A DNA stretch of 22,114 bases from a virus: IMG/VR virus record IMGVR_UViG_3300045925_000166, positions 1-22,114 of that record. One strand, given 5' to 3'. The notes under the pieces are model-generated. The model did not search any database. It worked only from the letters and a program-made list of their open reading frames with translations, and was not told where the DNA came from. Numbering within the stretch: the first letter of the stretch is position 1; each line of letters starts with the position of its first letter. The position numbers were made by a program, and so were the translations under genes. Below are positions 2,437 through 18,495 of this stretch, one piece after another.

Positions 2437-4113
2437 CTAGGGCGTCTCGTCGCGATCGCCCATCGTCTGGCTGCGCGTGAACTGCGCCAGCACGCGGATC
2501 GAGCGCTCATCGAGAAAGCCACCGTTGGCGTCGAGGATGGTGCGGAGCGCGCGCCGTCCGCCGGGCGTCGCGAGCGCGTTCGACACGGCCGTGTGCGCGA
2601 ATTGCGTGAGCGCGATGCCCGCGACGCCGCCGACGCTGGCGCCGATTTCGCCCTGGCCCACCAGACCGCCCAGCCCGCGCCCGACCGCGCGACCGACTTC
2701 TTGCCCGCCCAGCACGCGCCCAAGCACGCGCCCGGAGCCGATCGCCGCCTCGCCGCCGACGGGGGGCATGCTGCGCAGCCCGCGGTACTTCAGAAGCGTC
2801 CGCTGCATGTCCTCAAGCTCGGTGTCGGTGAACGACTCGCGGAGGAACTGGTACTTGCGCCCGACGTCGGACTCTTTCAGCGCCTGCGTCGGCGCGATGC
2901 GCGCCTCGTCCAGGGCGTTCAGCGGCTTGGCAGGATTGAACGAAAACTCGAGGTCGGAGCGGCCCTTGCCGACGCCGCTCTCGATGACTTCCGCGAGCTC
3001 GGGGATGGCCTTCTCCCGGCGGTACGCGGCGCGCGCCTGACGCAGCAGCGTGATGCCCTTCGTGGCCGAGCTGAAGTATTGAGAGACTGGCACCTGCTTC
3101 GCCGCGGCGGCGTCGTAGTCCTGGGCGATCGCATCCGCGAGCGCGCGATAGCCGCCTGGTACTTCCGTGGGCGCCTGGCCCCCCATGATCCCGGTGCGCG
3201 CGCGGATGCGTTCCTCGAGCGCGCGCAGTTCGCGGAACGGCACTTGCCCCTGATGCTGCTGCGCCTTCTCGATGACCTGGCGCGCGATGCCGAGCAACTC
3301 GCCCTGCAGCGGGCCCTCCCCGACCTCGAGCTCGCGGCGCAGCAGGCGATGGGCGACGCTGATCATGTTCGGCGTGTTGATGCGCGGGTTGATCTGCTCG
3401 ACCTGGCTGTAGAGCGTGTCCGACGGCACCTTCGGACGCAGCCGCGGATTCGCGGCAATGCCGCGCGCCGTCTCGACGGCTTCCTGATTCATGGCCGCCG
3501 CGCCGCCCGGAAGACGTCCCGCAAGCTGGGGAAGGTTGCGCGAGGCGGCTCCGACCACGGTCGCCGCCGGGCCCGCCGCACCGGCCGTCCCGACCTTCAT
3601 GGGCGAGATCTCTTCGCCCGCGAGGAGCTCTCGGCCCGTCTCGGCGCCCATGCCGGTCAGGGCCGCGCCCGCGGCGCCGCGCACGGTGCCCGCACCGGCC
3701 TGGCGCAGGAAGCGCGGCAGCGCCGCCGCGTACGCCAGCGCGCTCGGATCGGTGAGCTCGCCGGACTTGATCAATTGCCGCCCCGCTTCACCGGCCGCGC
3801 CGATGGCGGGATAGAGGATCGGCGCCAGCGGCGTCGCCGCCGCCGGGAGCTGGATGAACGACGAACCGTGCGCCACCGCTTCGCTGGCGAGATCGCGCAT
3901 CTGCTGCGTGATCGGCTCGCCCTCGGGCGTGAGTCCGCGCTTCGCCAGGCGATTGGCCTCGACCCATGGGTGCCCAACGGGCCCGGGCTGCTCCTGCTGG
4001 AGCTGCGACTCCTCGGCGCGGCGCTCGCCCATGTACTGCTGAGCGCCAGGCGTCTTCACCTCGCCACCCGCGCCCGTTCCCGGTGGCAGCCCCAGCGCTT
4101 GATTCGGCGTCAT
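2437..4113 (-). CDS. Large Ala/Gly-rich internal virion (ejection) protein, putative
   Basis: About 558 residues. I prefer ATG 4113 to the GTG three bases earlier because GGAG then lies five bases upstream; both starts overlap the previous stop. The N-terminal quarter is low in complexity and rich in Pro and Gln. Residues about 90-200 are Ala/Gly-rich and weakly hydrophobic (PLAPILYPAIGAAGEAG, TVRGAAGAALTGMG), suited to membrane interaction. The middle is a long charged helical region, and another Gly-rich stretch (GRVLGRVLGGQEVGRAVGRG) lies near the end. This resembles internal or pilot proteins that leave the capsid ahead of the DNA, and the position at the end of the tail genes fits. No catalytic motif was found. 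The family is not recognised; the role is inferred. Confidence 0.55.
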   Translation of the reverse strand: MTPNQALGLPPGTGAGGEVKTPGAQQYMGERRAEESQLQQEQPGPVGHPWVEANRLAKRGLTPEGEPITQQMRDLASEAVAHGSSFIQLPAAATPLAPILYPAIGAAGEAGRQLIKSGELTDPSALAYAAALPRFLRQAGAGTVRGAAGAALTGMGAETGRELLAGEEISPMKVGTAGAAGPAATVVGAASRNLPQLAGRLPGGAAAMNQEAVETARGIAANPRLRPKVPSDTLYSQVEQINPRINTPNMISVAHRLLRRELEVGEGPLQGELLGIARQVIEKAQQHQGQVPFRELRALEERIRARTGIMGGQAPTEVPGGYRALADAIAQDYDAAAAKQVPVSQYFSSATKGITLLRQARAAYRREKAIPELAEVIESGVGKGRSDLEFSFNPAKPLNALDEARIAPTQALKESDVGRKYQFLRESFTDTELEDMQRTLLKYRGLRSMPPVGGEAAIGSGRVLGRVLGGQEVGRAVGRGLGGLVGQGEIGASVGGVAGIALTQFAHTAVSNALATPGGRRALRTILDANGGFLDERSIRVLAQFTRSQTMGDRDETP

Positions 4114-5702
4114 CACTTCTCCTCGATCATGTCGAGGTCGGGATCCAGGCCCCGCTGCCTGAGCAGCTGATTGGTTTTCATCGGATCGCCTCGCGCATCG
4201 CGCCGGGCCTTGGCGTATTCGTCCTTCGTCGCGGGCTGCAGCGGCGCTGGACCCTTGAGACGGCCGCGCAGCTCGCCCAGCAGATCGGGCACGATCTCGT
4301 CAGCATTGAAGCCCTGCGATTGCGCGAGCCGTCGATATTCGGCTTCGATCTGCTCGTGCCCCTGCAGCCGCGCCGCCGCGATATTCCGGGCTTGGCCGAG
4401 GACGTCCCGCCGCCGCACGGCGGTGAGGCGCTGCCCAGCCCAGGCGCGGTTGTAGAGCGTGCGCACCGCCTCCGGAATGCTCTTCGCCTGGTCCGCGGTC
4501 GCGAACTCGCCTTCGCGCACGGCCGAATTCGGATCGAGGAGCTTGATGTACGAGTAGAGCAGGGACATGTCGCCGAAGGCGGTCGGCGGGCGCTGCGCGA
4601 TGCGTTCGATCGAGAGATACGCGTCGCGCACCGGGCCCATCGTCACCGACTGCTGCAGGAATTGATGGCGCATGGCGTTGATGTCCGTCGGCTTCGTGCC
4701 CGTCGGCTTGGGGCCGTACTCCTCGCGGCGCGTTCCCGTCACCGGATCGATCAGGACTTGCTTGCCGTCCTCCTCGATCACGACACCGTTCTTGGGCGAT
4801 TCGGGAAGCTGGAAGATCTTCTGGCCCGTGGTCGGATCTACGATCGCGCCACCAGGCGCAAGCGCCACCGGCCGATCCTTTGCGGTGAAGAGCACCCGGC
4901 CCGTCGTCGGATCAACGACGCTGGAGCCCGGCGCGACGACGATCGGCCGATCGGCCACACCACCAACACGCCTCCCCGTCTCAGGCTCAAGGAGCTGCTG
5001 GCCCGGCGACACCGGGATCGCCCTCTCGGGTGTTTTGGTAATCACCCTTCCCTGGAGATCGACCAGGCTCTGGCCTGGCGATAGAGGAATGGGCTTGTCC
5101 GGCACCGTGTAGCTCGGCTGCGTCTGCCCGGGCTGGAACACGCTCGCGCCGGGCCCGGCCACGGTCGGCGGATGATACTTCTGCGGTCCTGAGGCGACGA
5201 CGCGCCCGGTGTGCGGCTCGATGAGCTGCTGACCTTCGCCGACAACCTGGAAGGACTGCTTCGGCGCGAGCTGGTTGCCGAGGACGGTCGCGGCGTCGCG
5301 CGCCATGCCCGGCGTCTTGAGCAGGGCCTGGATGTACGCGGTCTGCGGCTTGCCGAGCAAGTCGGAGTACCGCTGCGGCCGCATCTCGGGCTTCGTCGGC
5401 GTGCGAAGGATGTCGGCCCGGCCCTCGGGCGCCGCGAAGTCCGGCACCTCGCGGCCGGTCGGAATCTCCGTGCCCGTGTCCTGGCCGAGCATTTCCGAGA
5501 GCCGCATTCCGAGCTCGCGGTCAGCCTGCTCGCGGCGCCCGAATTCGCGCACGGCGAGCTGGTTCTGGACCGCAGACGTGAGTCCAGCTAACCCTCGAGC
5601 GCCTGCGGGATGAATAGCTGCGGCAGCACCAGCAGCCAACGGTAAAGCGAAGCTGGCCACCTGCTCAGGAATACTCGCTCCAGGAGGAGCAAGGCCGCTC
5701 AA
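4113..5702 (-). CDS. Internal virion protein with PG-x-DP-TG repeats
   Basis: A 529-residue protein. Residues 19-30 are a hydrophobic Ala-rich segment. Residues about 151-330 hold roughly six degenerate 24-25-residue repeats with core PG-x3-V/L-D/E-P-x-T-G-R (for example SPGQQLLEPETGRRV and APGSSVVDPTTGRVL), probably a beta-repeat spacer. Residues 357-405 (GPVRDAYLSIERIAQ, then SYIKLLDPNSAVREGEF) match a conserved segment I know from large phage internal proteins, often those carrying a lytic domain; no lytic domain is seen here. Two copies of the RLS[D/E]L-type peptide lie at 66-72 and 110-116. The start is TTG 5702, overlapping the HNH stop, with GGAG upstream. A virion ejection protein is the best guess. 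Confidence 0.6.
   Translation of the reverse strand: MSGLAPPGASIPEQVASFALPLAAGAAAAIHPAGARGLAGLTSAVQNQLAVREFGRREQADRELGMRLSEMLGQDTGTEIPTGREVPDFAAPEGRADILRTPTKPEMRPQRYSDLLGKPQTAYIQALLKTPGMARDAATVLGNQLAPKQSFQVVGEGQQLIEPHTGRVVASGPQKYHPPTVAGPGASVFQPGQTQPSYTVPDKPIPLSPGQSLVDLQGRVITKTPERAIPVSPGQQLLEPETGRRVGGVADRPIVVAPGSSVVDPTTGRVLFTAKDRPVALAPGGAIVDPTTGQKIFQLPESPKNGVVIEEDGKQVLIDPVTGTRREEYGPKPTGTKPTDINAMRHQFLQQSVTMGPVRDAYLSIERIAQRPPTAFGDMSLLYSYIKLLDPNSAVREGEFATADQAKSIPEAVRTLYNRAWAGQRLTAVRRRDVLGQARNIAAARLQGHEQIEAEYRRLAQSQGFNADEIVPDLLGELRGRLKGPAPLQPATKDEYAKARRDARGDPMKTNQLLRQRGLDPDLDMIEEK
4713..5252 (-). repeat. Degenerate 24-25-residue protein repeats
   Basis: About six in-frame repeats within the 529-aa virion protein, each with a P-x-V/P-x-S/A-P-G core followed by D/E-P-x-T-G-R. 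They are clear at protein level and diverged at DNA level, so they look old rather than recently duplicated. Confidence 0.75.
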
Positions 5703-6223
5703 GCGACCTTCTCCGCGCGTTTTCGCTTTGCGATTTCTCGATCACGAGCTAGATGGTCGGCGCATTGACCACGGCCCGGCACGACAGCGGCGCTGCAATG
5801 TCGACATAGTCCGGCCGCGCGTCGATTCTGCTTCCATAGCCTGGAACATTCTAGGCAGAGCCGCTGGGGGCCGCGCCGACGCAGGTATGCTGTATACGCG
5901 TGCCCGTTGGGGCAATGTTCGCGACGGGCGTTGTGAGCCGCCAACCCTTCACCGCGAAGAACGTTGACGCGCATCGACACCGGCTCAAGATGGCCGGGAT
6001 TGATGCAGGCCCGTAGTCGACACAGATGATCGAGCGGAAGCCCGTCAGGAATCTCACCGCGGTAGATTGCATAAGCCAGCCGATGTGCTCTGAATCGTCG
6101 ACGACTGTCGACGCCAAAAGTCCCGTATCCATCACGGTCTCGCGCGCCAATCCAGATCCAGCAGCCGCTCATGGGTTCGGTCTCGACGTACCGCCACAAG
6201 CGCTGCTCGATATTCCCGCTCAT
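5699..6223 (-). CDS. HNH homing endonuclease (HNH_3 type)
   Basis: A 174-residue free-standing HNH nuclease. The core is H47 (RAHRLAYAIYRGEIP), D65-H66 with C68 (LDHLCRLRAC), N75 and H78 (NPGHLE), the standard metal-dependent DNA-nicking arrangement. The N-terminus has EPMSGCWIWIG, typical of this family. Extra Cys/His groups at 104-126 and 140-157 probably form structural zinc sites. It sits between virion genes and overlaps both neighbours (ATGA at the start, TTGA at the end). It is paralogous to the HNH gene at 12321-12773, sharing 25 identical bases over the MSGCWIWI codons. Likely a mobile intergenic nuclease. The family call is strong; its target is unknown. Confidence 0.9.
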   Translation of the reverse strand: MSGNIEQRLWRYVETEPMSGCWIWIGARDRDGYGTFGVDSRRRFRAHRLAYAIYRGEIPDGLPLDHLCRLRACINPGHLEPVSMRVNVLRGEGLAAHNARREHCPNGHAYTAYLRRRGPQRLCLECSRLWKQNRRAAGLCRHCSAAVVPGRGQCADHLARDREIAKRKRAEKVA

Positions 6224-6630
6224 CGAGGTCTCCCATACAGGCTCGGACGATTGCGCTTCGGCGGCGCCTCACGGTCGGGATAGACCGTGGGCGAGCCCTT
6301 CGTGTTGCCGGGAAGGATGCGCATGCCAGGCGACGCCGTCGGTAACGTCGGGGCGACTAACGAACCCGTGTACACATCGGTGGGAGGCAGTCGACGCGCG
6401 AGCGCCTCGAGCTCCTCGGGGCTCAGGACTAGTTCGCTCAAGCGCATCTCGTCGTGGGGCACATGCATCTGCGAGCGGATCTTGGCCGCCTCGACGGCCG
6501 ACGCTGTGTCAGGGTAGGTCACACCCGGCTCAAGCGGCAGCGTCAGGCCCTGCGCGGGCTCTTTACCGTAGACGTTGAACCAGCGTCGGGTCGTCGGGTC
6601 TTGAATCGTCTCGCTCTGCTCGTGCGACAT
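6220..6630 (-). CDS. Hypothetical virion-operon protein with RLSEL peptide
   Basis: A 136-residue protein in a chain of overlapping genes. The N-terminus (TTRRWFNVYGKEP) may form a small strand-rich segment. MRLSELVL at 62-69 matches the peptide shared by several proteins of this operon. It is followed by a helix (PEELEALARRLPP) and a disordered Pro/Arg-rich end. I know no family. The operon position and the shared peptide suggest a minor virion or assembly protein. Confidence 0.55.
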   Translation of the reverse strand: MSHEQSETIQDPTTRRWFNVYGKEPAQGLTLPLEPGVTYPDTASAVEAAKIRSQMHVPHDEMRLSELVLSPEELEALARRLPPTDVYTGSLVAPTLPTASPGMRILPGNTKGSPTVYPDREAPPKRNRPSLYGRPR

Positions 6631-6914
6631 CAGTACCCCCCGCCCATGCCGCCGCCCATCATCATCCCCAGCGTCATCTCGTCCTCGGGCCGCTTCCGCT
6701 GCTGGCCCACCAGGTCGGAGAGGCGCAAATCGGCCGCAGGCGGGGCGCCAGAGGCCTTAGAACCGAAGCTCTGGGCCGTTGGGGTAAACCCCCCTGCGCC
6801 AGGCGCCGAGGGGTCTGAAATGGGCGACGGCGGCCCCCCGTGGGCCGCGCTAGCGACACCTGCGCCGATGCTGCCAGCGGCGGCCAGGGCTGCGGCGACG
6901 ATTGAGGCGGCCAT
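6630..6914 (-). CDS. Small Ala/Gly/Met-rich protein with FTPTA and RLSDL elements
   Basis: A 94-residue protein. The N-terminus (residues 2-24) is a weakly hydrophobic Ala/Gly segment like those of phage pilot or internal proteins. Residues 41-49 (GGFTPTAQS) and 63-69 (LRLSDLV) form a module also found in the 61-aa and 143-aa neighbours. The tail is MMMGGGMGGGY. It overlaps the GNAT gene upstream as TGATG. Probably a small virion-associated protein that may touch the membrane; the function is unknown. Confidence 0.55.
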   Translation of the reverse strand: MAASIVAAALAAAGSIGAGVASAAHGGPPSPISDPSAPGAGGFTPTAQSFGSKASGAPPAADLRLSDLVGQQRKRPEDEMTLGMMMGGGMGGGY

Positions 6915-7375
6915 CAGGCGATCTCCCCGCCGATCAGAATGGCGTCCGTTCCATGGGGAAACACGTTCGGCACTCGCAGCGGAAGCTGGGTGAACCCCTG
7001 GCGCTCGAGGATGGTCAGCATGGGCAGGTTGTCGGGCTGCGTCGCCCCCAGGAACCTGGTGCAGCCCACGTCGCGGCCGTAGCGCAGCCGCTCGTCGGCG
7101 AGCTGGCGCCCGTAGCCCTGGTGCTGGAAGCGCGGCAGCACCGCGACGTCGACGCCGAAGATCACCAGCCCGCGATCGTCGTGACCGATCGAGTACGAGG
7201 TGAAGCCCAGCAGCGCGCCGTCCGACTGCATGACCAGCGTCGGGTGGGCGAAGTACCAGAGGGGCGAGCGCTCGGGCCAGCCCGGGTGCGCCTCGCGGTA
7301 GATCGCGCGCACCTTCGGCTCTTCGTCCGGCCGCATCGGTCTGATGGCGCCGTTATCCTCGGGCAAGGAGGTCAC
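6914..7375 (-). CDS. GNAT-family N-acetyltransferase
   Basis: A 153-residue GNAT protein. Motif A is clear at about 76-95 (VDVAVLPRFQHQGYGRQLA), with the acetyl-CoA pyrophosphate loop Q84-H-Q-G-Y-G-R90. Motif B follows around NLPMLTILERQGF. Length is normal for a single-domain GNAT. It starts at GTG 7375 inside the end of the preceding gene (23-base overlap). An acetyltransferase among minor virion genes could modify virion or host proteins; the substrate cannot be read from the sequence. The family is certain, the role open. Confidence 0.85.
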   Translation of the reverse strand: MTSLPEDNGAIRPMRPDEEPKVRAIYREAHPGWPERSPLWYFAHPTLVMQSDGALLGFTSYSIGHDDRGLVIFGVDVAVLPRFQHQGYGRQLADERLRYGRDVGCTRFLGATQPDNLPMLTILERQGFTQLPLRVPNVFPHGTDAILIGGEIA

Positions 7376-7784
7376 TCAATCGCAGCCCGCCCACGCCGCC
7401 TGAGCCGCGCGCGCCGTACGCGCCGTACGCGCCGTACGCGGTGGGCTGAAAGGCGGCCGCCTGCGGGATCCGAGGCGCCGCGATCGGCGACGCGGTCGGC
7501 CCTTTCGAGAGGTCGCCGTACATGCCGCGACCGAGCTGCGCGATGCTGGTGGCCATCTGCAGTTGGTTCGCCAGGCTCTTCCAGCGATCGGTCGAGGCCG
7601 CCGTCTTCTTGTCCGAGCTCGAGGTCGCGGGATCCGTCCGGATGTAGGGATGCTCCGCCGAGGGCATGCCGGTGTTCGGATCGGTGCCGAGCGGCGCGGG
7701 CATCCCGGTGAATTCGTCGGAGATGGTCGCCGCCGGTTGCGAGCTCCCGCCGCCAGACAAGCCAAAGAGGTCGGAGAGGTTCAT
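7353..7784 (-). CDS. Small virion-operon protein with RLSDL at both ends
   Basis: A 143-residue protein starting MNLSDLFGLS and ending LRLSDLLARG, so the shared operon peptide occurs at both termini. The middle is polar and mostly disordered, apart from a helix at about 67-90 (RWKSLANQLQMATSIAQL). AFQPTAYG (111-118) precedes the second peptide, as FTPTA does in two neighbours. A 9-bp DNA repeat encodes AYG triplets at 118-125. The function is unknown; it may be a flexible linker or cargo protein of the virion. Confidence 0.55.
   Translation of the reverse strand: MNLSDLFGLSGGGSSQPAATISDEFTGMPAPLGTDPNTGMPSAEHPYIRTDPATSSSDKKTAASTDRWKSLANQLQMATSIAQLGRGMYGDLSKGPTASPIAAPRIPQAAAFQPTAYGAYGAYGARGSGGVGGLRLSDLLARG
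7412..7438. repeat. 9-bp tandem repeat, three copies
   Basis: Three perfect copies of CGCCGTACG (+ strand), in frame, encoding repeated A-Y-G in the 143-aa protein. Likely slippage-prone and variable between strains. Confidence 0.85.
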
Positions 7785-7966
7785 TGCGCCCTCAACAGGA
7801 GATCGCTCAGCCGCGGCTCACTCCCGACCGGCGGCGTCCCCCCGCCCGCCTGACTCAGCGCCGTGGGCGTGAAGCCGCCCGCGCGCCTGCCAAGCTGCAA
7901 CGGCGCGGGCTGCGGCACATCGGGGCCGTCCATCATGTTCTTGTACTGGCCGATCTGATCACCCAC
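7781..7966 (-). CDS. 61-aa protein with FTPTA and RLSDL elements
   Basis: A 61-residue protein starting at GTG 7966, three bases after the preceding stop. It consists of a short helical head (GDQIGQYKNMMDG), then GGFTPTALS (30-38) and a terminal PRLSDLLLRAQ (51-61). The second half is closely related to residues 41-70 of the 94-aa protein at 6630-6914, so the two share a duplicated module. Such a minimal protein is little more than the module itself, which suggests that the peptide is the functional part. Confidence 0.5.
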   Translation of the reverse strand: MGDQIGQYKNMMDGPDVPQPAPLQLGRRAGGFTPTALSQAGGGTPPVGSEPRLSDLLLRAQ

Positions 7967-7969
7967 GGC

Positions 7970-8626
7970 TTAGCCTCCGGTGAAGATGCCCTGCTTGCCG
8001 CGCGTCGTGGACTGCTGGCCGATGGTCGACGGCACCAGCGTGCCCATCGGCGTGCCGAGCGCCGTCTCGGCCAGCGCCTGGCGGCGGAGCTCGTCCTGCC
8101 GCTCCGCTTCATAGCCCGCCTGCTCGATCCCGCGTTCGACGCCGCCGGTCTGCGAGTAGGCCTGCATCGCTTGCAGCACGGCGTCGCGCTCGGTGCCCAG
8201 CGCGCGCTCTTCGCGGCCGAAGACGTTCTCGATCGTCGGCTGCAGGTACGCGGCGCGCGCCGCGGCATCCGCGTTCGTCAGCGCCGTCGAGCGCCCGAGC
8301 CCGCTGACCGCCGCGCGGTTCTCGATGCCCGGCATGATGGCGGTGTTGTAGGCCTCCTGCGCGGCCGCGAACGAGGGATCGGTTCTCAGCGTCTCACCGC
8401 TCACGCGCCGCTGGGCCTGCTGCTGAATCTGCGGGACCATCCCGGCGGCTTTCCGTTCGCCCTCGGAGAGCCCCGCGACCTTCATCGGCTTGGCCTCGAG
8501 GAACGGATCGATCGGCGCCTTGGTTTGAAACTGCCGGTACTTCTCCCCCGTCTGCTGCGCGAGGGCCGACGTATAGTCCGGCATCTGGGGCTCTTGCTTC
8601 GTGGTCGTGCGCGTCCCGCCGCCCAT
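7970..8626 (-). CDS. Helical internal-virion-type protein, 218 aa
   Basis: 218 residues with a strong GAGGAGG five bases before ATG 8626. The protein is Ala/Gln/Glu-rich and mainly helical, with stretches such as SFAAAQEAYNTAIMPG and AALTNADAA-type helices through the middle and a Gly/Thr-rich end. No transmembrane segment or catalytic motif is seen. The composition and the position after the tail genes resemble small internal or pilot proteins of podoviruses. Unlike its downstream neighbours it has no RLSDL peptide. The function is inferred from context only. Confidence 0.5.
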   Translation of the reverse strand: MGGGTRTTTKQEPQMPDYTSALAQQTGEKYRQFQTKAPIDPFLEAKPMKVAGLSEGERKAAGMVPQIQQQAQRRVSGETLRTDPSFAAAQEAYNTAIMPGIENRAAVSGLGRSTALTNADAAARAAYLQPTIENVFGREERALGTERDAVLQAMQAYSQTGGVERGIEQAGYEAERQDELRRQALAETALGTPMGTLVPSTIGQQSTTRGKQGIFTGG

Positions 8627-8635
8627 AGCGCCTCC

Positions 8636-9103
8636 TCAGAGCTCCCGGTCGCAGACCATGTGCGTCGGCTTGAAGCCGTACAGCCGCTGAAACAGCCGCG
8701 CGCGCGCCAGGCCGCGCTCGTCCTTGTGCAAGGTCAGGATCCGCAGCGTCGTCGCCCCCTTGCCGCGAGACCATTCGGCGATCTCATCGAAGGCGCGCCG
8801 CACCTGCGCGCGCTCGAGCGGCTCGTCGCTCTCGTACTGCACGATCGTGCCGATGACCTTGTCGCACCAGGTGTCGATGGTGACCAGGCAGTGGCCGATC
8901 AGCGAGCCGTCGTGGACCGCGATCCACACGCGCAGCGTCTGCCGCTTCTCGGGCACCACGAAGTGCTCGACCACGCGCTGCGCGATCGACTCCGGATCGG
9001 TGTCGGTCTCGTGCTTGCGACAGAACATCGCCACGCGATTCACGACGCCCGGCATCAGCGCCCAGCTGCCGGGATCCATCCGGTCGAGGGGATAGATGAT
9101 CAT
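8636..9103 (-). CDS. GNAT-fold-like protein, 155 aa
   Basis: The start is ATG 9103, which overlaps the preceding stop (ATGA); the longer frame upstream lies over other genes. Of the 155 residues, 57-80 (TLRVWIAVHDGSLIGHCLVTID) match GNAT strands 2-4, and the later part (ARARLFQRLYGFKPTHMVCDREL) matches the closing GNAT helix and strand. The acetyl-CoA loop Q/R-x-x-G-x-G/A is not obvious; RGKGA at about 113-117 may be a remnant. It could be a diverged acetyltransferase or an inactive structural derivative. It is the second GNAT-type protein in this operon. Confidence 0.5.
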   Translation of the reverse strand: MIIYPLDRMDPGSWALMPGVVNRVAMFCRKHETDTDPESIAQRVVEHFVVPEKRQTLRVWIAVHDGSLIGHCLVTIDTWCDKVIGTIVQYESDEPLERAQVRRAFDEIAEWSRGKGATTLRILTLHKDERGLARARLFQRLYGFKPTHMVCDREL

Positions 9104-9390
9104 CCCAGCGGCACCCACGCGGTGCCGTCCGAGCCCTGAAACTTCTGATTGGGGACGGCATCGCTCACGAGAATGACGCTCCCGATCCAATCCGCCGCCG
9201 CCGGGCGCGTCGCCGTCGTGTAGACCGCCAGGGGCAGCGGATTCGTGAGCCGCTCGCTGCCGTCCTTCGGCATGGTCCGGTTGAGCCGATACCCGATGTC
9301 GCGGAAGAGCGGCGTCATGTAGGCCACCAGCGCCTGCAGCGCGGCGAGGCCTGAGCTCGGCAGCGTGGGGCTCTCGAGTACCTGCTTCAT
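9100..9390 (-). CDS. Small fibre- or tail-associated protein, 96 aa
   Basis: ATG 9390 overlaps the nozzle gene's stop (ATGA). The end (GSVILVSDAVPNQKFQGSDG then TAWVPLG) is a motif familiar from C-termini of phage tail-fibre and receptor-binding proteins, where it forms a small beta fold. The first half is helical. It lies directly after the nozzle-like gene, so a tail accessory or fibre-tip role is likely, though unproven. Confidence 0.5.
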   Translation of the reverse strand: MKQVLESPTLPSSGLAALQALVAYMTPLFRDIGYRLNRTMPKDGSERLTNPLPLAVYTTATRPAAADWIGSVILVSDAVPNQKFQGSDGTAWVPLG

Positions 9391-10916
9391 CGCCGCCCCC
9401 GCGGCGCGATCGTGACATCCGAGCCGTCCCACTCCACGAATTGCGTGGCGTCGGCCTCGACGCGGATCGCCGCCGCCTGCGTCGAGAGCCGATGGCCGGT
9501 GTAGTAGGGGCCGCCGTCGACCAGGTCGAGCTCGTTCTCGGTGCCCGTCGGATCGTCCTCGAGGCGCCGGTCCTCGCCGTAGTCGCTCGCGGCCAGGCGC
9601 ACGCGCACCTTCTGAGAGCCTCCGCTCGTCTTGAAGAAGTGCTGCACGTCGGTGATCGTGCCCCAGCGCTCGCCCATGCGCTGCAGCCCCGTCTCGAAAT
9701 AGGACGGGATCGCGGCGCCCGCGTCGGTGAGCCCCGAGTCTTGGTAGGCCTGGCCGGTCAGGTCGCCGATCACGAAGCGCGGTACGGTCGTGTCCATCTC
9801 GCCCAGCGTCGTGCCGATGTCACCGATGGGCACGCCCAGATCGCCGATGGTCAAGCCGCTGGGGATCAGCAGGCGCGAGCCCGCCGTCGGCGACAGCCCG
9901 TTCCAGCGCACGGGATAGCACTGCCCGCTCGGGAACGTGATCACCACGCCGCGCGTCGGCTCGGTGCCGCCGATGGCCGGGTAGATGACCCAGAGCATCT
10001 GCTGATCGGAGTCGAACGCCACCCACGAGCGCGGCAGGCGATCGGTGGTGATCGTCTTCGCGATCTGCCGCTGCACCGCGAGGCCCATCGAGCGCGGCAC
10101 CGTGCCGTCGAACGTGTACACCGCGGAGTCGTTGCCGAGGTACGCGTGCAAGCCTTCAGTGATCGACACCACCGCCTGCGTCGACACGGGCCCTTTGACG
10201 TCGCGGCGAAAATCGAACCGGAACGGCACCGTCCCGTCCTGCGCGATCGCGAGGCCGATGGCGTGATCGGTGTAGATCGCGCCTTGTAGGTAGCCGAGCT
10301 CCTGCATCGCGATGATCTCGCCGGGCACTTCGCCCATGATTTTCACCAGCACGGAGCCCCAGCCGCTGTCGAAGTCGGAGAGCGCGGAGACGTCGAGCGC
10401 GACGGGGGACAGCGTGCCGCCCGAGCTCAGGTTGCCGAGGATCACGCGATCCGCGACCACCATCATGCAGCGCGCGATCGGGGGCGAGCCGCCGATGTTC
10501 ACGTACGCGGCGGCGGTGCCGTCCCACTTCTTCGGCGCGTCCTTGTTGTTCACGCCCAGGAGCCACGTCTGGCCCGCCTTGGAGAACGGCCGGAAGACTT
10601 GCTGCTGCGTCGGCGACGCGGTGAGCGGCACGCCGCCCGCCAGGCTCACCCACGCATTGGTCCCGACGTCGTAGCGCCACCATGAGGCCACCGTGCCCAT
10701 CACGCCGCGATAGCTCAGGTCATGATGCAGGTACTGGATGAACGCGGTCGGGCGCTGCGCGGTGCTGGTCGCGAACGCGGTTTCTCCGGGGCGTACGCGG
10801 AACGTGCCGCTGCGACGCAGCCAGTTCTCGGCCTCGCGCAGCGCGTTTGCGGGCACCTCGAAATGATCGAGGTCGGCTCGCACGCCATCGGTCGGCACGG
10901 CGAGGAAGGGAGCCAT
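9387..10916 (-). CDS. Tail nozzle / stabilisation-like beta-rich protein
   Basis: 509 residues, all-beta in appearance, with recurring short Trp/Asp/Gly blocks (WWRYDVGTNAW, TWLLGVNN, PKKWDG, AVYTFDGTVP) as in beta-propeller tail proteins of podoviruses. The opening (about residues 20-45, ending in FRVRPG) is typical of phage nozzle or packaged-DNA stabilisation proteins. A compact run of TIGDLG / PIGDIG / TLGEM units lies at about 351-372. It directly follows the collar fibre and adaptor genes, which fits a tail-tube or nozzle component. The beta-rich tail assignment is good; the precise name is tentative. Confidence 0.6.
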   Translation of the reverse strand: MAPFLAVPTDGVRADLDHFEVPANALREAENWLRRSGTFRVRPGETAFATSTAQRPTAFIQYLHHDLSYRGVMGTVASWWRYDVGTNAWVSLAGGVPLTASPTQQQVFRPFSKAGQTWLLGVNNKDAPKKWDGTAAAYVNIGGSPPIARCMMVVADRVILGNLSSGGTLSPVALDVSALSDFDSGWGSVLVKIMGEVPGEIIAMQELGYLQGAIYTDHAIGLAIAQDGTVPFRFDFRRDVKGPVSTQAVVSITEGLHAYLGNDSAVYTFDGTVPRSMGLAVQRQIAKTITTDRLPRSWVAFDSDQQMLWVIYPAIGGTEPTRGVVITFPSGQCYPVRWNGLSPTAGSRLLIPSGLTIGDLGVPIGDIGTTLGEMDTTVPRFVIGDLTGQAYQDSGLTDAGAAIPSYFETGLQRMGERWGTITDVQHFFKTSGGSQKVRVRLAASDYGEDRRLEDDPTGTENELDLVDGGPYYTGHRLSTQAAAIRVEADATQFVEWDGSDVTIAPRGRR

Positions 10917-11698
10917 CAGGTGGAGATGTACGGCGCCGCCACCACGTAGGGCTGCACGACGCTGGCGGTGGGCGACGAGGTGGGCGCACCCGTGACGTTC
11001 ACACTCGGCCCCGCAGTCGGCCCGCTGATCGTCGTGTCGTGCGCGTGGCTGACCGTCGCGTTCGTCCCGGCGCCCGTGTTGAACTGGACCGTCGCCGGGA
11101 AGGTCGTGGAGGTGAACGTCCCCTGCTGCGTGTGCGTATGCGATTGGAGATCATGCTGGTGCGACGGCATCGCGACAGTCTTCGCCCCGCCCGCATCCCC
11201 GACTACATCGAAGTCCGGATCGGCGGCGTCCTGGCCGACCACCACCTTGCCCTTGAGGTTGGGCACGTTGAACGTGGTCGAGCCGTCGCCCGCGCCGAAG
11301 AGAATGCCGATGGTCGCGAAGAGCCTCGCGTACGTCGTGCGCGAGACCGCCGCGCCGTCGCAGGGGAGCCAGCCCGCCGGGCTCGAGGTGCCGCAAAACC
11401 ACTTGAGCTCGCCTGCGGGTTGCAGTTCTACCGCGCGCTCCGTGTTGTGCCAGAGGATGCGCGTGTTGTTGCGCTGGAGCTCGCCCGCGGCGGTCGGATT
11501 CGCGGAGGCATTCTGCAGCGTGATCTTGGTCAGGCCCGCCGCCGTCGCCGCAAAGAGCGCCACGGCGATGTCGGTGTCGATCGGGATCCCGAGCAGATCG
11601 CAGAGCGCTTTCTCGAGATTGCCAACCTCGTCATCGATGGACGAGCCGAGCGTCGCATTCGTCATGCGCGCCGAGCGGAGGCGATTCGGCAGCGCCAT
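10916..11698 (-). CDS. Tail fibre protein with phage tail collar domain
   Basis: 260 residues. Residues 106-154 are a phage Tail Collar domain (SPAGWLPCDGAAVSR, then LFATIGILFGAGDG, then FNVPNLKGKVVVG). The C-terminal third is Thr/Ser/Gly-rich with three H-x-H pairs (H180/182, H187/189, H218/220). In known short and long tail fibres such pairs bind metal along a trimer axis. The final VVQPYVVAAPYI matches the usual Q-P-Y ending of collar proteins. It overlaps the adaptor gene as TAATG. Probably a receptor-binding or collar fibre. Confidence 0.85.
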   Translation of the reverse strand: MALPNRLRSARMTNATLGSSIDDEVGNLEKALCDLLGIPIDTDIAVALFAATAAGLTKITLQNASANPTAAGELQRNNTRILWHNTERAVELQPAGELKWFCGTSSPAGWLPCDGAAVSRTTYARLFATIGILFGAGDGSTTFNVPNLKGKVVVGQDAADPDFDVVGDAGGAKTVAMPSHQHDLQSHTHTQQGTFTSTTFPATVQFNTGAGTNATVSHAHDTTISGPTAGPSVNVTGAPTSSPTASVVQPYVVAAPYIST

Positions 11699-12324
11699 TA
11701 GGGCTCTCTCCCCACCGGCCGACGCCCGGCCGACTTCGCGCGCGCGTGCTCGCGCACCATCTGCAGCTCGAGCTCGGTGCCGCGCGCCTGCCAGACCGGG
11801 ATGCGCTCGTCTTCCAAGCCGTAGCGCGTCATGTCACCCAGCGCCTTGAAGAGCAGCACCTCCCACGCCTTGTCGGTGAGCGCGGTGTGATCACCGTCTG
11901 CGCTCAGGTCGGGCAGGTAGCGGTAGTACGCGCGGTGGATCGTGAGCACCTGGTCCGGCGTCTTGCCGAGGTAGAGCTGGCCGCTCCACGTCGTGTAATG
12001 CCCCGGCTTGGCGGTCTTCGTCGGATCGGGATAGAGGTTGTCGAATTCATCGAGCAGCAGGAACGACAGCGTATGGACGCCCTGCGAGTCGGGATCGAGG
12101 TACTGCATCTCGTAGGGGCGGCTGAAGTCGCTCGGCAGATCGTACGCGTTCTGGCCCGCGACGGTGTCGAACGTGTCGAGCTGCTCGTTGAAGCTGAGAT
12201 CCCACTGACGACAGAGCTCCTTCTGCGCGATGTTCAGGATGTCGGTCCTGACCGCCTGGGAGATCCGCTTGCTATTGGCCCCTATCCAGTCACCTAAGCG
12301 ATCTCGGAGCTCTACGTGCGTCAC
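11698..12324 (-). CDS. Head-tail adaptor (connector) protein
   Basis: 208 residues from GTG 12324, which overlaps the HNH stop as GTGA; the ATG further upstream lies inside the HNH gene. The pattern is that of podovirus or SU10-type adaptors: N-terminal helices (LRDRLGDWI, DILNIAQKELCRQW), a strand-rich centre (AYDLPSDFSRPYEM, then SGQLYLGKTPDQVLTIHRAYYRYLP), and a C-terminal helix (WEVLLFKALGDMTRYG) followed by a charged tail. Such proteins form a ring beneath the portal that joins head to tail. It lies immediately before the fibre and nozzle genes, as expected. Confidence 0.7.
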   Translation of the reverse strand: MTHVELRDRLGDWIGANSKRISQAVRTDILNIAQKELCRQWDLSFNEQLDTFDTVAGQNAYDLPSDFSRPYEMQYLDPDSQGVHTLSFLLLDEFDNLYPDPTKTAKPGHYTTWSGQLYLGKTPDQVLTIHRAYYRYLPDLSADGDHTALTDKAWEVLLFKALGDMTRYGLEDERIPVWQARGTELELQMVREHARAKSAGRRPVGREP

Positions 12325-12773
12325 GCCACCGCTCTCCGATCTCTCAGCCTCTTGGAATGAGCAATCTGACAGGGGCGGCACTGACGATTCCCGCGGTAGT
12401 TGGTGTATGCGTCATGCAGAGAATGGCCGTGCCTGCAATGGGTCGCGCGCGACGCCTGAGCGCTCGGGCTTTCGCCGCGCAGAATATTCTCGCGGACCGT
12501 GGCGACTTCCAGATGCGCAGGATTCACGCAAGCCCGCACGCGACACAAATGATCCAGCGTCATCTCTTCCGGGATTTGGCCGCGCGCGTGCTCATACATC
12601 AGCCGATGCACGCGAACCTTGCGCACGGAGCCATCGGTCTTTGAGCCGATGTGCGTCTGGCCGTAGCCGTCCCAAAAGCGATTGGCAATCCAGATCCAGC
12701 AGCCGCTCATCGGCTCGGGCTCGATGTGCCGCCACAGGCGGGCGAGGATCGGCGCCGACTGACGCGGTTTCAC
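12321..12773 (-). CDS. HNH homing endonuclease (HNH_3 type), second copy
   Basis: 150 residues with the same core as the HNH gene at 5699-6223: EPMSGCWIWI (20-29), H56, LDHLCRVRAC with D74-H75, N84 and H87 (NPAHLE), then a Cys cluster at 113, 132 and 135. It lacks the last zinc group of the other copy. It starts at GTG 12773 in a GTGA overlap and ends in a GTGA overlap with the adaptor gene, so it is fitted without a gap between a small MPPK gene and the adaptor. The two copies are clear paralogues. The nuclease assignment is strong. Confidence 0.9.
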   Translation of the reverse strand: MKPRQSAPILARLWRHIEPEPMSGCWIWIANRFWDGYGQTHIGSKTDGSVRKVRVHRLMYEHARGQIPEEMTLDHLCRVRACVNPAHLEVATVRENILRGESPSAQASRATHCRHGHSLHDAYTNYRGNRQCRPCQIAHSKRLRDRRAVA

Positions 12774-12964
12774 TTACCCTCTTCCGCTTTCGAGAACGCG
12801 ATCGCTCTCAGCATGGCCTCCTTGCCGCCCGGCCCGAAGTGCTTCGCCCGGGTCACCGTCGAGGGCTCGTTCGTATGCACCTCGCGCATGGCCGCCTCGA
12901 CCTTCTTGCGCGAGGCATCGCCGTCGCCGTGCTGCGCGCGCCTGCCGGACAACTTGGGCGGCAT
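12770..12964 (-). CDS. MPPK-type small basic protein, 64 aa
   Basis: 64 residues from ATG 12964 in a TGATG overlap. It begins MPPKLSGRR, matching the starts of three other short proteins in the module. The rest is helical and charged (SRKKVEAAMREVHTNEP, GGKEAMLRAIAFSKAEEGK), somewhat like small phage proteins that end in a conserved K-rich helix. The function is unknown; virion-associated or DNA-binding is plausible. Confidence 0.5.
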   Translation of the reverse strand: MPPKLSGRRAQHGDGDASRKKVEAAMREVHTNEPSTVTRAKHFGPGGKEAMLRAIAFSKAEEGK

Positions 12965-13200
12965 CACTCGTCCCGATCCGGATCGTTCAGATCGCTGATG
13001 GTGGCCCGCAGCGGGTTGGCGTTCGGGTTCGCCTGATTGCGCAGCGTCTCCGCCATCTGCTTCGGCGGGCCCGCCTTGGCTGGGCGCACTGGATTCGTCG
13101 TCGGCCCGGTGGAGGCGTCCGGCGACTTCGGCCGCGGCGGCGACGTCGGAGTGTTCGGCAGGCTCTCCTTCGTGGCGCGCTGCCCGACCTTTGGAGGCAT
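12964..13200 (-). CDS. MPPK-type small disordered protein, 78 aa
   Basis: 78 residues from ATG 13200 in a TAATG overlap. It begins MPPKVGQRATKES and continues as a Pro/Lys/Asn-rich, probably disordered chain (TPTSPPRPKSP, PNANPLRATISDL), with an acidic end. It belongs by its start to the MPPK set. No known family. Confidence 0.45.
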   Translation of the reverse strand: MPPKVGQRATKESLPNTPTSPPRPKSPDASTGPTTNPVRPAKAGPPKQMAETLRNQANPNANPLRATISDLNDPDRDE

Positions 13201-13340
13201 TAGCCTTGCCCCGGGCGACGCAGATCCTTTGGGTCGCCGGTGGTCTTACCCTTGATCGGCGCCGCGTGGTGCGGATCCTTCGCGCTCGGCACTTTCGGCG
13301 TACTCGCAAGGTGGCGGATCGAACTCAACTTGGGCGGCAT
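13200..13340 (-). CDS. MPPK-type micro-protein, 46 aa
   Basis: 46 residues starting MPPKLSSIRHLAS. The start ATG 13340 has AAGGAAGGAG upstream at six-base spacing, one of the strongest ribosome sites in the window. The first 95 bases lie within the end of the 205-aa gene, in another frame. The rest is basic and Pro-rich (APIKGKTTGDPKDLRRPG). The ribosome site and the MPPK start support it as a real gene. Confidence 0.5.
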   Translation of the reverse strand: MPPKLSSIRHLASTPKVPSAKDPHHAAPIKGKTTGDPKDLRRPGQG

Positions 13341-13863
13341 CGGGGACTCCTTCCTTGATGTGCTCAGGATTGATGTGCAGCGCCGGGGGCCCGTGGCGAT
13401 GCGGGCGCATCGGCGCCAGCTGACCGTGCAGCCACGCATCGAGGCTCCGCCAATCGAAGATGTCATTGCGCGGATACGTGGCCCACAGATTCGGGTGACG
13501 CTCGATAAACTTCGCGGAGAATTTCACGCACCCCAGATTTTTCTCGTTCACCGCGCCATGCACGATCAGCGGCAGTGCGCACCAGGACTCCGGGCAGAGC
13601 CAGAGCTGGGTCAGGGCCCCGGGCCAGGGCGCGACGTCGGCCTCGAGGTTGATGAACGGCCGCTTCCACTTCCAGAGCTCGACCAGCGAATCGCCGTACG
13701 CGTGCTTGTGCGTCGGCGGGCAGTAGACCAGCGTGGTCGACATCTCGATCGGCGCCGGGCGAAACTGCGGATCGTTGGTGCGCAGATGCAGCCGCTCTTG
13801 CGCGATCGCGGCCATCGTCGCCTTCTCGATCGTGCCTGCGTAGTGGACGACGACGCGGATCAT
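13246..13863 (-). CDS. Glycosyltransferase-like protein, 205 aa
   Basis: 205 residues from ATG 13863 (ATGA overlap). The core has the features of a small GT-A-like glycosyltransferase: INLEADVAPWPGAL (possible metal-binding E-x-D), CPESWCALPL, a Gly/Asn segment ending in NLGCVKFSAKFIERHP, FDWRSLDAWL, and a His-rich end (PHRHGPPALHINPEH). Similar proteins appear in phage virion modules. The last 32 residues overlap a separate small gene and may be less constrained. I am fairly unsure of the enzyme class; an inactive or structural relative is possible. Confidence 0.45.
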   Translation of the reverse strand: MIRVVVHYAGTIEKATMAAIAQERLHLRTNDPQFRPAPIEMSTTLVYCPPTHKHAYGDSLVELWKWKRPFINLEADVAPWPGALTQLWLCPESWCALPLIVHGAVNEKNLGCVKFSAKFIERHPNLWATYPRNDIFDWRSLDAWLHGQLAPMRPHRHGPPALHINPEHIKEGVPDAAQVEFDPPPCEYAESAEREGSAPRGADQG

Positions 13864-15512
13864 TGCGGGGCCCCCGCCTCGGTGCCGGGCGGCCCCATGG
13901 TCGCCTTGCCGAGCATGTACAGGGCCATCGGCGCCGTCAGCCCAAGCGTCGCCGCCCAGTCGGAGATGTTCTCGATCCCACTATGTTTTTCGGCGAGGCG
14001 AGCCCGGATCTGCGGTTCCAGCGCCTGGGCCCCGGGGTAGTCCTTGCCGTACCGCTTGACCACCCAGCCGCGCCACAGGGTCTCGGCGAATTCCTGCGGC
14101 GTGGTGCCCACGCGCCGCGCGTCCTCGCGCATGCGAGCGGCCCCGACCTGGACATGCTTTTCCGTGAGCTCCTTCTCGCCAAGCTTGCGGAAGTAGAAGG
14201 CAGCATTGTGGCGATCGAACGCGACCGCTTCAGGGTCGCCTCGCGCCAAGGCCTCGCGCAGACTCGGGATGGCGCGGTTGAATTCGAACACCTTGGGCCC
14301 GGTCATCTCGAGCTCGCCGCTGGCGGCGCGCGCGAGATTGCCCGCGTGGCCCCGCATGAAGAAGGGATCCCCGGTGGCGGGGTTGATGGCCATGAAGTCC
14401 TCGAGCTTCGTGGCGCCCGTCTTCCACATCCCAAATGCCTTCAACGCTGCGTCGAGATTCCCCGCTGCACTCTGCTGCTGCGGACTGGTCGCGGCGTAGA
14501 ACCGCCAGAACATGTCCCAGTCCTGGGGCGTTCGGAAGAGATCCATGGTGTTCCCCGCGCCCAGGTACCACGTCGGCTCGCCCACCTTCTCTCCGAGGGA
14601 CTTCTTGAACTGGACGCCCCGCTCGTACATCTCTTTCGCTTGGCCGAAGGGGCGCATCTCGCCCTGGAGCTGCGCAACCGTGTCTTCCAGGTCGCGAATG
14701 CTGGACAGCCGCACCTGAGTGGGGTGGGGATTCGGCTCTACCGGACGCTCTTGGCCTCGCGTGATGTCGTAGAGCGCCTTCTGGCCACCCTTCTGGCCCA
14801 GGTTCGCCGCCGTCGCTTCCTGACTGGGCGTCGCGGTGATGTCGAGGTACGTCTTGCCCTCGTTCGTCCACGTCCCGGCGGAGAGCGCTTTGTTCTCCAG
14901 AATTTTTTGACGCCTGATGTCGGCGAGGAAGTTGGACACCTGCGCGAGCGTCGGCTGCCCCTCCACCACCTCGGAGGGGGTATAGCGCCCCGCCTTCAGG
15001 GCGTCCTCTTTGTTGGGGAAGACCGCGACCGAGTAGCCGCTCGTCACCGGCTTGCCCGTCGCGACGTTGAACGTGCTCCCGCCGCCGCCGGTTTCGTGAA
15101 GCTTAAGAATCGTCGCCGCGTCCTTGAGGGCCTTCGCACCGATGTCGCCGACGAGTTTCTGCCCGGGCCTGGCCGTGCCAGTCAGGACAACTTCGTTCGG
15201 ATCGGGCTGGGGATACTCGTAGCCCAGGGCCCCACCGATCCCGCGAACGAGCGGCGAAGGATTCTCCGGGTTGTAGAACTGCTCCACCAGGATGGGGTAC
15301 AGCGCTTCATGCACCGGGGGGTACGCGGTGCCGATCGCCTGGTTGACGGCGCGCGACCACGGTGGCGTGGGCATCGACGTCGGCGCCGTTCCCTCCAGAT
15401 CGCCCGGCAACGGCTGGCGCAGATCGGACAGACGCATGAACTGCGTGAGCGTCGGGCTCTCCGCGAGCTCGGGGTCGAGCTGTCTCAACTCAGACAAGCG
15501 GAACTCAGCCAC
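13860..15512 (-). CDS. 550-aa virion-type protein with twin RLS[D/E]L peptides and HhH-GPD-like region
   Basis: 550 residues from GTG 15512. The N-terminus carries the shared peptide twice (FRLSEL at 4-9, MRLSDL at 26-31). Residues about 142-252 (GGGGSTFNVATGKPVTSG, then TYLDIT, then ALYDITRG) match a small domain known from large polyvalent phage proteins. Residues about 315-445 (FYAATSPQQQSAAGNLDAALKAF, read in two parts, then TGPKVFEFNRAI, then AVAFDRHNAAFYFRKLG) resemble a phage domain whose G-x-K-V and V-x-x-D-R-H order parallels the helix-hairpin-helix and catalytic Asp region of HhH-GPD DNA glycosylases (D433 here). A short hydrophobic segment lies near the end. Probably an ejected or internal protein acting on DNA; inference only. 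Confidence 0.5.
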   Translation of the reverse strand: MAEFRLSELRQLDPELAESPTLTQFMRLSDLRQPLPGDLEGTAPTSMPTPPWSRAVNQAIGTAYPPVHEALYPILVEQFYNPENPSPLVRGIGGALGYEYPQPDPNEVVLTGTARPGQKLVGDIGAKALKDAATILKLHETGGGGSTFNVATGKPVTSGYSVAVFPNKEDALKAGRYTPSEVVEGQPTLAQVSNFLADIRRQKILENKALSAGTWTNEGKTYLDITATPSQEATAANLGQKGGQKALYDITRGQERPVEPNPHPTQVRLSSIRDLEDTVAQLQGEMRPFGQAKEMYERGVQFKKSLGEKVGEPTWYLGAGNTMDLFRTPQDWDMFWRFYAATSPQQQSAAGNLDAALKAFGMWKTGATKLEDFMAINPATGDPFFMRGHAGNLARAASGELEMTGPKVFEFNRAIPSLREALARGDPEAVAFDRHNAAFYFRKLGEKELTEKHVQVGAARMREDARRVGTTPQEFAETLWRGWVVKRYGKDYPGAQALEPQIRARLAEKHSGIENISDWAATLGLTAPMALYMLGKATMGPPGTEAGAPQ

Positions 15513-17511: not shown

Positions 17512-18495
17512 CTATCGCCTCGGCAGGAACGGCTCGGTGAGTGAGTCGAGCATGCTCGGCGCTTGCACGGGCGCGGGCGTCGGGCGGGAGCCCTTGCCGT
17601 CGCCTGCGGCGCGTCGCCGATCGGTCTCACGCTGAATCCGGTCGCGCTCTGTCGCCGTCTGCGCCGCCGTCAGAATCGTGTCGTGCTTGAACGCGATCCA
17701 CATCCGAGCGAGGTAGTCCGGAGTCAGTCGGCTGACTGGCGGATCTCCCATCTCGATCATGAAATCCAGAAACCCGGCCCGCTCGCGGGCGTCCTTGAGC
17801 GGCGCGAACACCGCGCCCTGGCCCGCGAGCCCATCGAGGTTCGCCATGAGCTGGTTCTGATGCCCGGTCTGCTCGGCCTTGCGGGTCTGCCCCTGATTCG
17901 CCGTCCGAAACTCTTGGAAGGCAGTCCCGAGCTGGTAGAGCTGGTCGCGGTGCCAGAGCATCTGCGCGACCGCGTTCGGGTAGAGCTGGGCGAAGTCCTC
18001 TTCGATGCGCCCCTCGCGCACGACTTGCGCGATCTGCGGGGCGTAGTGGGCGACAAGCTGGGCCTGCTCGACGCGCGGATCCATCTGCGGCTGGGGCGGC
18101 TGCTGCGCGGGCTGCTGGCGCTCCCGCTCGAGCATCTCGGTGTACTTCCGCTGCAGCGCGGGAAACTGCTCGTAGGTCTGCAGCAGCGCTTGCTGGAGAA
18201 AGTCGTTCTCGAGGATCTCCGCGAACGTGTAGTCCTTGCCGCGGATCTTGATGCGCTGCTCGGGCCGAGGCGATGGTTCCGGACTCGGCGCAGGCTCGGG
18301 CGTCGGCGAGGGTTCTGGAATCGGCTTTTCAGCCGGGAGAAAGTCGCTCGTGAGGTTGGTCAGACGTTCAGACGACGCGGGTGCTGCTGCGGGCGCAGGC
18401 GCGGCGGCAGGCGCGCTCGGAGCCGAGCTCGCTGCCGGGGCCGGTGACGATGGTGCGCTGCTGGGGGCTGCTGCTGCTGGTTGTTCGTCCGCCAT
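17512..18495 (-). CDS. Scaffolding protein
   Basis: 327 residues. The first 80 are low-complexity (Ala/Pro/Ser, then Glu-Pro and Ser-Pro repeats). Then RIKIRGKDYTFAEILEND starts a long helical, coiled-coil-prone region rich in Gln, Arg and Glu (about 95-165). The end is basic with SMLDSLTEPFLPRR, which may be the capsid-contact tail. Position directly before the capsid gene and the elongated helical character are those of a phage scaffold. SSERLTNL near residue 42 is only a weak echo of the RLS[D/E]L peptide. ATG 18495 has GAAGG eight bases upstream. Confidence 0.75.
   Translation of the reverse strand: MADEQPAAAAPSSAPSSPAPAASSAPSAPAAAPAPAAAPASSERLTNLTSDFLPAEKPIPEPSPTPEPAPSPEPSPRPEQRIKIRGKDYTFAEILENDFLQQALLQTYEQFPALQRKYTEMLERERQQPAQQPPQPQMDPRVEQAQLVAHYAPQIAQVVREGRIEEDFAQLYPNAVAQMLWHRDQLYQLGTAFQEFRTANQGQTRKAEQTGHQNQLMANLDGLAGQGAVFAPLKDARERAGFLDFMIEMGDPPVSRLTPDYLARMWIAFKHDTILTAAQTATERDRIQRETDRRRAAGDGKGSRPTPAPVQAPSMLDSLTEPFLPRR

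Follow-up and report, generated by a model that had tools for sequence, protein, structure and literature searches.

An RLS[DE]L peptide shared by presumed ejection proteins as a candidate docking tag in one clade of SU10-like phages

Introduction

How does a short-tailed phage mark the proteins that are to travel inside its head? To our knowledge, how podovirus ejection proteins are selected for packaging is largely open; the scaffold is involved in P22, a phage in which no short address sequence is known to us. A phage fragment of 22,114 bases (IMG/VR record IMGVR_UViG_3300045925_000166, positions 1 to 22,114; GC ~67%), referred to here as the window, bears on this question: one short peptide, RLS[DE]L, recurs in six proteins of its virion operon. 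A first-pass annotation, made from the letters of the sequence, proposed that the peptide docks ejected cargo to a common partner. By its major capsid protein (MCP), which matches PF17236 (SU10_MCP; 135 bits, cut-off 24), and its portal, which matches PF23899 (SU10_portal; 55 bits, cut-off 30), the window phage is an SU10-like podovirus, and all its virion genes lie on the minus strand. We report that a clade-specific motif at the peptide level is almost certainly real. That RLS[DE][LIVM][LVM] serves as a docking tag, loading ejected proteins into the head or procapsid of one SU10-like clade, is a proposal drawn from sequence to which we give about an even chance.

Results and Discussion

Distribution of the motif

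All nine sites listed in the first-pass annotation translate to the peptides it claimed: FRLSEL, MRLSDL, PRLSDLL, MNLSDL, LRLSDLL, LRLSDL, MRLSEL, MRLSEML, and QRYSDLL. Scanned in six frames for [RKNQ][LYMI]S[DE][LMIV], the window gave no others; all nine lie on the minus strand (as does every window feature below) within open reading frames of the virion operon. The 550-aa protein (13860..15512) carries two copies near its N-terminus, RLSEL at residues 5–9 (15486..15500) and RLSDL at residues 27–31 (15420..15434). RLSDL stands five residues before the C-terminus of the 61-aa protein (7781..7966; site 7799..7813) and four residues before that of the 143-aa protein (7353..7784; site 7368..7382), which also has NLSDL at residues 2–6 (7767..7781), a copy missing from its orthologues. 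One clear copy each is found in the 94-aa protein, which has a hydrophobic N-terminus (6630..6914; RLSDL, 6711..6725), and in the 136-aa protein (6220..6630; RLSEL, 6430..6444). The 529-aa protein (4113..5702) contains RLSEM at residues 67–71 (5490..5504) and RYSDL at residues 111–115 (5358..5372), the latter being RLSDV in relatives. Four sites, not the five first counted, fall within six residues of a terminus: the first of the 550-aa protein, that of the 61-aa protein, and both of the 143-aa protein. Weaker copies are RLSSI (in VRLSSI, 14697..14711) at residues 268–272 of the 550-aa protein and TLGMM (in EMTLGMMMG, 6660..6674) near the C-terminus of the 94-aa protein.

Enrichment was measured on the 29 minus-strand proteins of the window (6,461 aa) and on a background of genes called in 119 other SU10-like regions (578,670 aa). 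Six window proteins together contain nine matches to [RN][LY]S[DE][LM], versus 0.048 by residue shuffle (maximum two in 5000 shuffles), and the 10 background matches translate to 0.11 expected for the window (P ~7e-15, an optimistic value given that the pattern was picked on the window, so that the relatives are the better test). With about 0.05 and 0.11 sites expected, respectively, the earlier judgment that such recurrence is unlikely by chance stands. The narrower pattern of the first-pass annotation, [LMFPE]RLS[DE]L[LV], gave four matches versus 0.001 by shuffling, and RLS[DE]L gave six, while 59 other orderings of the same letters averaged 0.08 with none above two. Across the clade described below, R[LYMIF]S[DE][LMIVF] occurs 22 times in 36,135 aa, versus 17 times in the 578,670 aa of the other SU10-like regions.

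A position-specific scoring matrix (PSSM) built from 23 sites assigned 17–28 bits to the training sites in the ejection block and the 550-aa protein (17.4 and 22.6 bits for the two copies in the latter, whose weak third copy scored 11.3) and at most 12.5 bits to other clade proteins. Since the matrix was trained on the sites it scores, the informative part is the background, which reached a maximum of 17.4 bits among 570,478 positions. One non-virion protein of the relative G005 contains RLSDL, which scores 8.0 bits in context and is consistent with the background rate. In a de novo search for recurrent 8-mers over the protein ends of the window, RLSDL was the top match, only slightly above shuffles. 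A search for lineage-specific tags in other SU10-like phages returned isolated pairs and no comparable family, against a cross-genome null inflated by orthologues.

It is the peptide and not the DNA that recurs, as the 15-mers of the nine sites all differ and the serine codon is TCN in six and AGY in three. The mean nucleotide identity among sites is 0.596, versus 0.653 under random synonymous recoding. We also considered a DNA repeat or regulatory element, which the codon divergence of the nine sites rules out.

Conservation and gain in relatives

IMG/VR scans with four proteins identified one close clade, comprising the window, G001, G003, and G005 as four independent genomes (G002 and G004 are near copies of G003). 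Scans with the p218 and p529 families found no members beyond this clade, and among GTDB genome contigs the closest relative had only 29% MCP identity. Within the clade, MCPs are 86–91% identical, and the carriers diverge far more, with identities of 49–56% in the 94-aa family, 35–41% in the 143-aa family, and 51–68% over the first 150 residues of the 529-aa family. The first-pass annotation had named enrichment over shuffled controls and conservation in related phages as checks on its proposal. Enrichment was found over shuffles and over the other SU10-like phages, and the motif is present in the same genes of the three related phages, together with new copies.

All three of these carrier families retain the motif, mostly in the form RLS[DE][LIVM][LVM]G. 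At the C-terminus of the 143-aa family it reads RLSDILGRR, RLSDILARR, or RLSDLLARG, preceded by [FY]QPTA across a linker of variable length; the site and its QPTA are kept in all four genomes. The QPTA and RLSD[IL]L.R cores of this family are 0.90 identical, versus 0.47 elsewhere. The gap narrows in the 94-aa family (0.73 vs 0.55), where RLS is invariant in four of four genomes, and is slight in the 529-aa family (0.63 vs 0.58). Copies have also appeared at new places: at residue 7 of the 136-aa homologue in G003, at residue 69 of that in G001 (besides the shared site), and, as RLSQM, near the C-terminus of the 94-aa homologue in G005, where the window has its weak TLGMM. The 550-aa protein with its two copies occurs in the window only. 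Such repeated gain is expected of a functional tag, and shared ancestry alone does not predict it. The motif is confined to one genus-level clade.

The carriers are the non-enzymatic proteins encoded between the 218- and 559-aa genes, plus the 550-aa protein. The gene order after the 509-aa gene is 218-, 61-, 143-, 153- (GNAT-like), 94-, 136-, 174- (HNH-like), 529-, and 559-aa, and the block from the 218- to the 559-aa gene is, by its position relative to SU10, a presumed ejection block. This assignment follows from SU10, in which the genes for gp20–24 form a block 3' of the tail genes; the SU10 report names these five as ejection proteins, identified by comparing full with emptied virions (PMC9509320). 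No copy of the motif was found in the GNAT, HNH, portal, MCP, adaptor, collar, or 509-aa proteins of the clade. Peptide recurrence, conservation, repeated gain, clade restriction, and the limitation of carriers to the presumed ejection block and one protein besides are computed results.

A second motif, [FY][TQ]PT[AS], lies upstream of RLSDL in the 61-aa (FTPTA, 7859..7873), 143-aa (FQPTA, 7437..7451), and 94-aa (FTPTA, 6774..6788) proteins, as well as in the 529-aa homologue of G003. In the form [FY][TQ]PT[ASH] it occurs 12 times in the clade and six times in the background, a ~33-fold enrichment. The matching gene block of L159, L160, and L167, relatives with 57–61% MCP identity, also contains it without RLSDL, which makes the second motif look the older of the two. 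The 529-aa homologue of these three has LQLSQVYRG at the place matching the motif.

Docking and its alternatives

On the docking-tag proposal, the motif would form a short amphipathic helix on a terminus or a disordered linker, with Ser-Asp/Glu as the helix cap and Leu plus two hydrophobic residues as the binding face. Most chains bound for the head interior would carry one or two copies. During procapsid assembly these would share a single binding site, most likely where the scaffold also docks on the capsid interior or the portal, and the tagged proteins would then be sealed in, to be ejected at infection. We infer, rather than compute, that the carriers are in the virion, that the motif recruits them, and which partner they meet. 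AlphaFold2 modeled the two sites of the 143-aa protein as short helices (residues 3–6 and 136–142) and the remainder as one long helix (59–93) amid disorder, at low confidence (four sequences; mean predicted local distance difference test score, pLDDT, 52). In the 529-aa model (mean pLDDT 48, also low confidence), one site lies at the end of a long helix and the other forms a helix of five residues. Both models agree with a short L-S-[DE]-Phi-Phi helix without proving it.

The docking peptide for ejected cargo suggested by the first-pass annotation fits the identity of the carriers, the use of ends and linkers, and the absence of the motif from shell, tail, and enzyme genes. Its description of six unrelated proteins with no other similarity holds in part: the 136-, 529-, and 550-aa proteins share nothing else with the small carriers in the window, but those small carriers, the 61-, 143-, and 94-aa proteins, have the second motif in common. 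If the proposal is true, virion cargo could be predicted from sequence by a testable rule, and the motif could serve as a small tag with which to load proteins into phage capsids.

Several observations weigh against it. The motif is known from four independent genomes only, and the relatives with 55–61% MCP identity have no RLSDL in their sequenced part, which implies that loading in general is independent of this sequence. Within the presumed ejection block itself, the 218- and 559-aa proteins are without a clear copy. Finally, these phages are uncultured, and a virion location for the carriers is deduced from gene order.

One special case of a docking tag is scaffold mimicry, in which the tag copies the capsid-docking end of the scaffold and cargo takes some of the scaffold's shell sites; we regard it as possible but rather unlikely. 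The window scaffold (17512-18495, assigned by position and composition) has the N-terminal peptide RLTNLTSDFLP (18334..18366) and the C-terminal peptide MLDSLTEPFLPRR (17515..17553). In relatives the former reads RLSELTSDFLP or RLSDLTSDYLP, and the N-peptides of G003 and G005 literally contain RLS[DE]L. In the same two genomes, no other C-terminus comes near that of the scaffold, [EA]DFLPRR, in likeness to the cargo C-terminus SDILGRR, with scores of 18 in G003 and 19 in G005 against 8 and 11 for the runners-up; the 1913 background C-termini include none that matches the cargo end as well. Fusion to the scaffold gets proteins packaged in P22 (PMC9962691), and P22 ejection proteins are proposed to dock at the inner end of the scaffold bundle (PMC12005531); the fusion is engineered there, whereas on the cargo considered here a comparable short end would be natural. 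The scaffold is sequenced in three clade genomes, however, and resembles the cargo C-terminus in two of them: the window pair is weak (EPFLPRR vs SDLLARG, score 5), and the N-peptide there is RLTNL. Nor does the PSSM of cargo sites single out the scaffold, whose core scores 7.4 bits in G003 and falls outside the top 18 in G005. Family-wide, ejection-block termini are no closer to their own scaffold than others are (p = 0.08), and the scaffold/cargo pair was spotted before being tested.

The two scaffold ends also resemble each other. Across 66 SU10-like scaffolds, N–C end similarity averages 17.5 within a protein versus 14.4 between proteins (0 of 10,000 permutations reach 17.5) and versus 14.8 once the C-terminus is shuffled (SD of the mean 0.44); individually, 13 of the 66 pass at 0.05. 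Matched peptides at both ends are what is expected if both dock to one partner, which gives a second, family-wide prediction on how SU10-type scaffolds staple the shell. Taken with the cargo ends, these sequences suggest that cargo and scaffold may share a docking site on the shell or portal. The fullest version combines these elements: a bipartite tag ([FY][TQ]PT[AS], a variable linker, and RLS[DE]L) would mimic the docking end of its own scaffold and load ejected proteins, including the newly acquired 550-aa protein, in a family whose scaffolds bear matched docking peptides at both ends that differ between lineages. We consider this combination rather unlikely.

Particular scaffolds illustrate ends that are alike within a genome and different between lineages: GSIDDLM/GSIEDLL in L035, LASEFTAED/LAEELLAED in G019, and LQNELDEF/LQQELDEL in G018. 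In Kuura (OQ067476, L032), the scaffold C-terminus SEFASFMNNGFG resembles the C-terminus AAFASLFGNGS of a 356-aa protein encoded downstream in the virion module. Adjacent 268- and 71-aa ejection-block proteins of G006 (L038 19394-20419, L127) end alike, in DRLAWMRAFNVQG and DRTAFLQAFGIQ, perhaps another lineage's tag, and neighboring genes of G026 (L137) encode 369- and 473-aa products ending in GWSSLF and GWQSLF.

The motif might instead join ejection proteins to each other or to one hub, building the ejected channel rather than loading its parts. That nearly all carriers belong to the ejection block favors such a cargo–cargo role, and several copies per chain, including tandem ones, would suit multivalent assembly. 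Yet the 550-aa carrier is encoded outside the block, is an acquisition of the window alone, and would be unneeded in a conserved channel, and no conserved receptor domain is apparent among the ejection-block proteins. We consider this reading doubtful, on a par with scaffold mimicry.

Under shared ancestry, the small carriers would be diverged duplicates and the motif what remains of their common source. The second motif upstream of RLSDL in the 61-, 143-, and 94-aa proteins speaks for some kinship. So do the 61- and 143-aa genes (7353-7966, joined by an ATGA overlap), which appear to correspond to two halves of one gene in relatives: the 143-aa protein strongly matches the C-half of a single 129–133-aa protein (z 14–16), and the 61-aa protein weakly matches its N-half (z 2.7–5.1, or 1.2–2.1 with the shared motifs masked). 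Both products carry the tag. The 136-, 529-, and 550-aa carriers, however, have no other likeness to the small ones in the window, and copies lie at non-homologous positions in orthologues (the 136-aa family in G003 and G001, the 94-aa family in G005). Keeping the motif alone would, moreover, still imply selection. Descent as the whole explanation is distinctly unlikely.

A processing site for a head protease is less probable by far. T4-type head proteases cut at [IL]xE, which LSE and LSD loosely resemble, but no Peptidase_S78 was found in the four genomes, the third position has Asp as often as Glu, the residues past the putative cut are conserved (ILGRR), and cutting the C-terminal sites would free only 4–5 residues. 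Chance or a low-complexity artefact is next to impossible: the pattern was selected after the window had been viewed, but it recurs in the three relatives and in copies that played no part in its definition, and neither shuffles nor the 119 related regions reproduce it. A sliding-clamp motif was also considered and ruled out; such motifs are of the QxxLF type, with which the invariant R and S-[DE] are at odds.

Comparison with known systems

Capsid-targeting and cargo-loading peptides, as a class, have one short sequence that recurs more often than chance allows on different proteins of a genome, and the motif shows this feature. The capsid-targeting sequence (CTS) of T4 is an N-terminal propeptide, longer than the motif, that the head protease cuts off. 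Like the RLS[DE]L motif, it is one shared sequence on otherwise diverse proteins; the motif differs in being 5–7 residues long, at either end or internal, and sometimes present twice per chain. With C-terminal and internal copies and no Peptidase_S78, it does not qualify as a T4-type CTS. In T4, the conserved sequence brings diverse internal proteins into the precursor scaffolding core and can package foreign proteins (PMC3012670). The cargo-loading peptide of encapsulins is short, located at one cargo end, and sufficient for loading into an HK97-fold shell (PMC7355545). The likeness here is a short peptide at a cargo end; the peptide sequences differ, and MCP binding by the motif is putative. 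Encapsulins usually serve one cargo family and have no portal, scaffold, or genome. By analogy, the motif may work like the T4 CTS and encapsulin peptides while being a member of neither, with shell binding putative. The encapsulation peptides of bacterial microcompartments, joined by disordered linkers, likewise bring cargo to a shell (PMC13185644), although both shells and sequences are unrelated.

SU10 itself, a Kuravirus, shares the MCP (PF17236) and portal (PF23899) families and the gene order, and has five ejection proteins; no strict RLS[DE][LIVM] match was found in the SU10 region scanned. Our literature search, of incomplete coverage, turned up neither a report of podovirus ejection proteins sharing a short tag nor a tag of this sequence.

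Gene neighborhood

The head and tail genes of the window encode the portal (19636-21774), the MCP (16333-17502), an adaptor-like protein (11698-12381), a collar/fibre protein (10916-11698), and the 509-aa structural protein (9387-10916). The 550-aa gene sits between head genes, outside the ejection block. Residues 143–259 of its product match phrog_17808 (function unknown), as residues 370–499 of the 529-aa protein match phrog_13634 (function unknown). Searches of the relatives, IMG/VR, and PLSDB found no homologue of the 550-aa protein; Pfam and NCBIfam gave no match, and the PDB no significant one. The matches in actinobacterial phages, to small proteins, were weak and covered a domain of 110 residues. 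It is possibly an acquired, injected protein.

By sequence inspection, the virion operon also appears to contain two GNAT-type acetyltransferase genes (6914-7375 and about 8636-9100) and three HNH-type genes (5699-6223, 12321-12773, and 19232-19639), and the HNH family is repeated elsewhere in the genomes of relatives. The MCP coding sequence of G005 (22724-24573; L013, L028) is broken after ~19 codons by ~670 bases, a probable intron or insertion. In G008 (30887-32705; L040), the MCP match is split into two pieces, and the first short frame contains a TAG stop.

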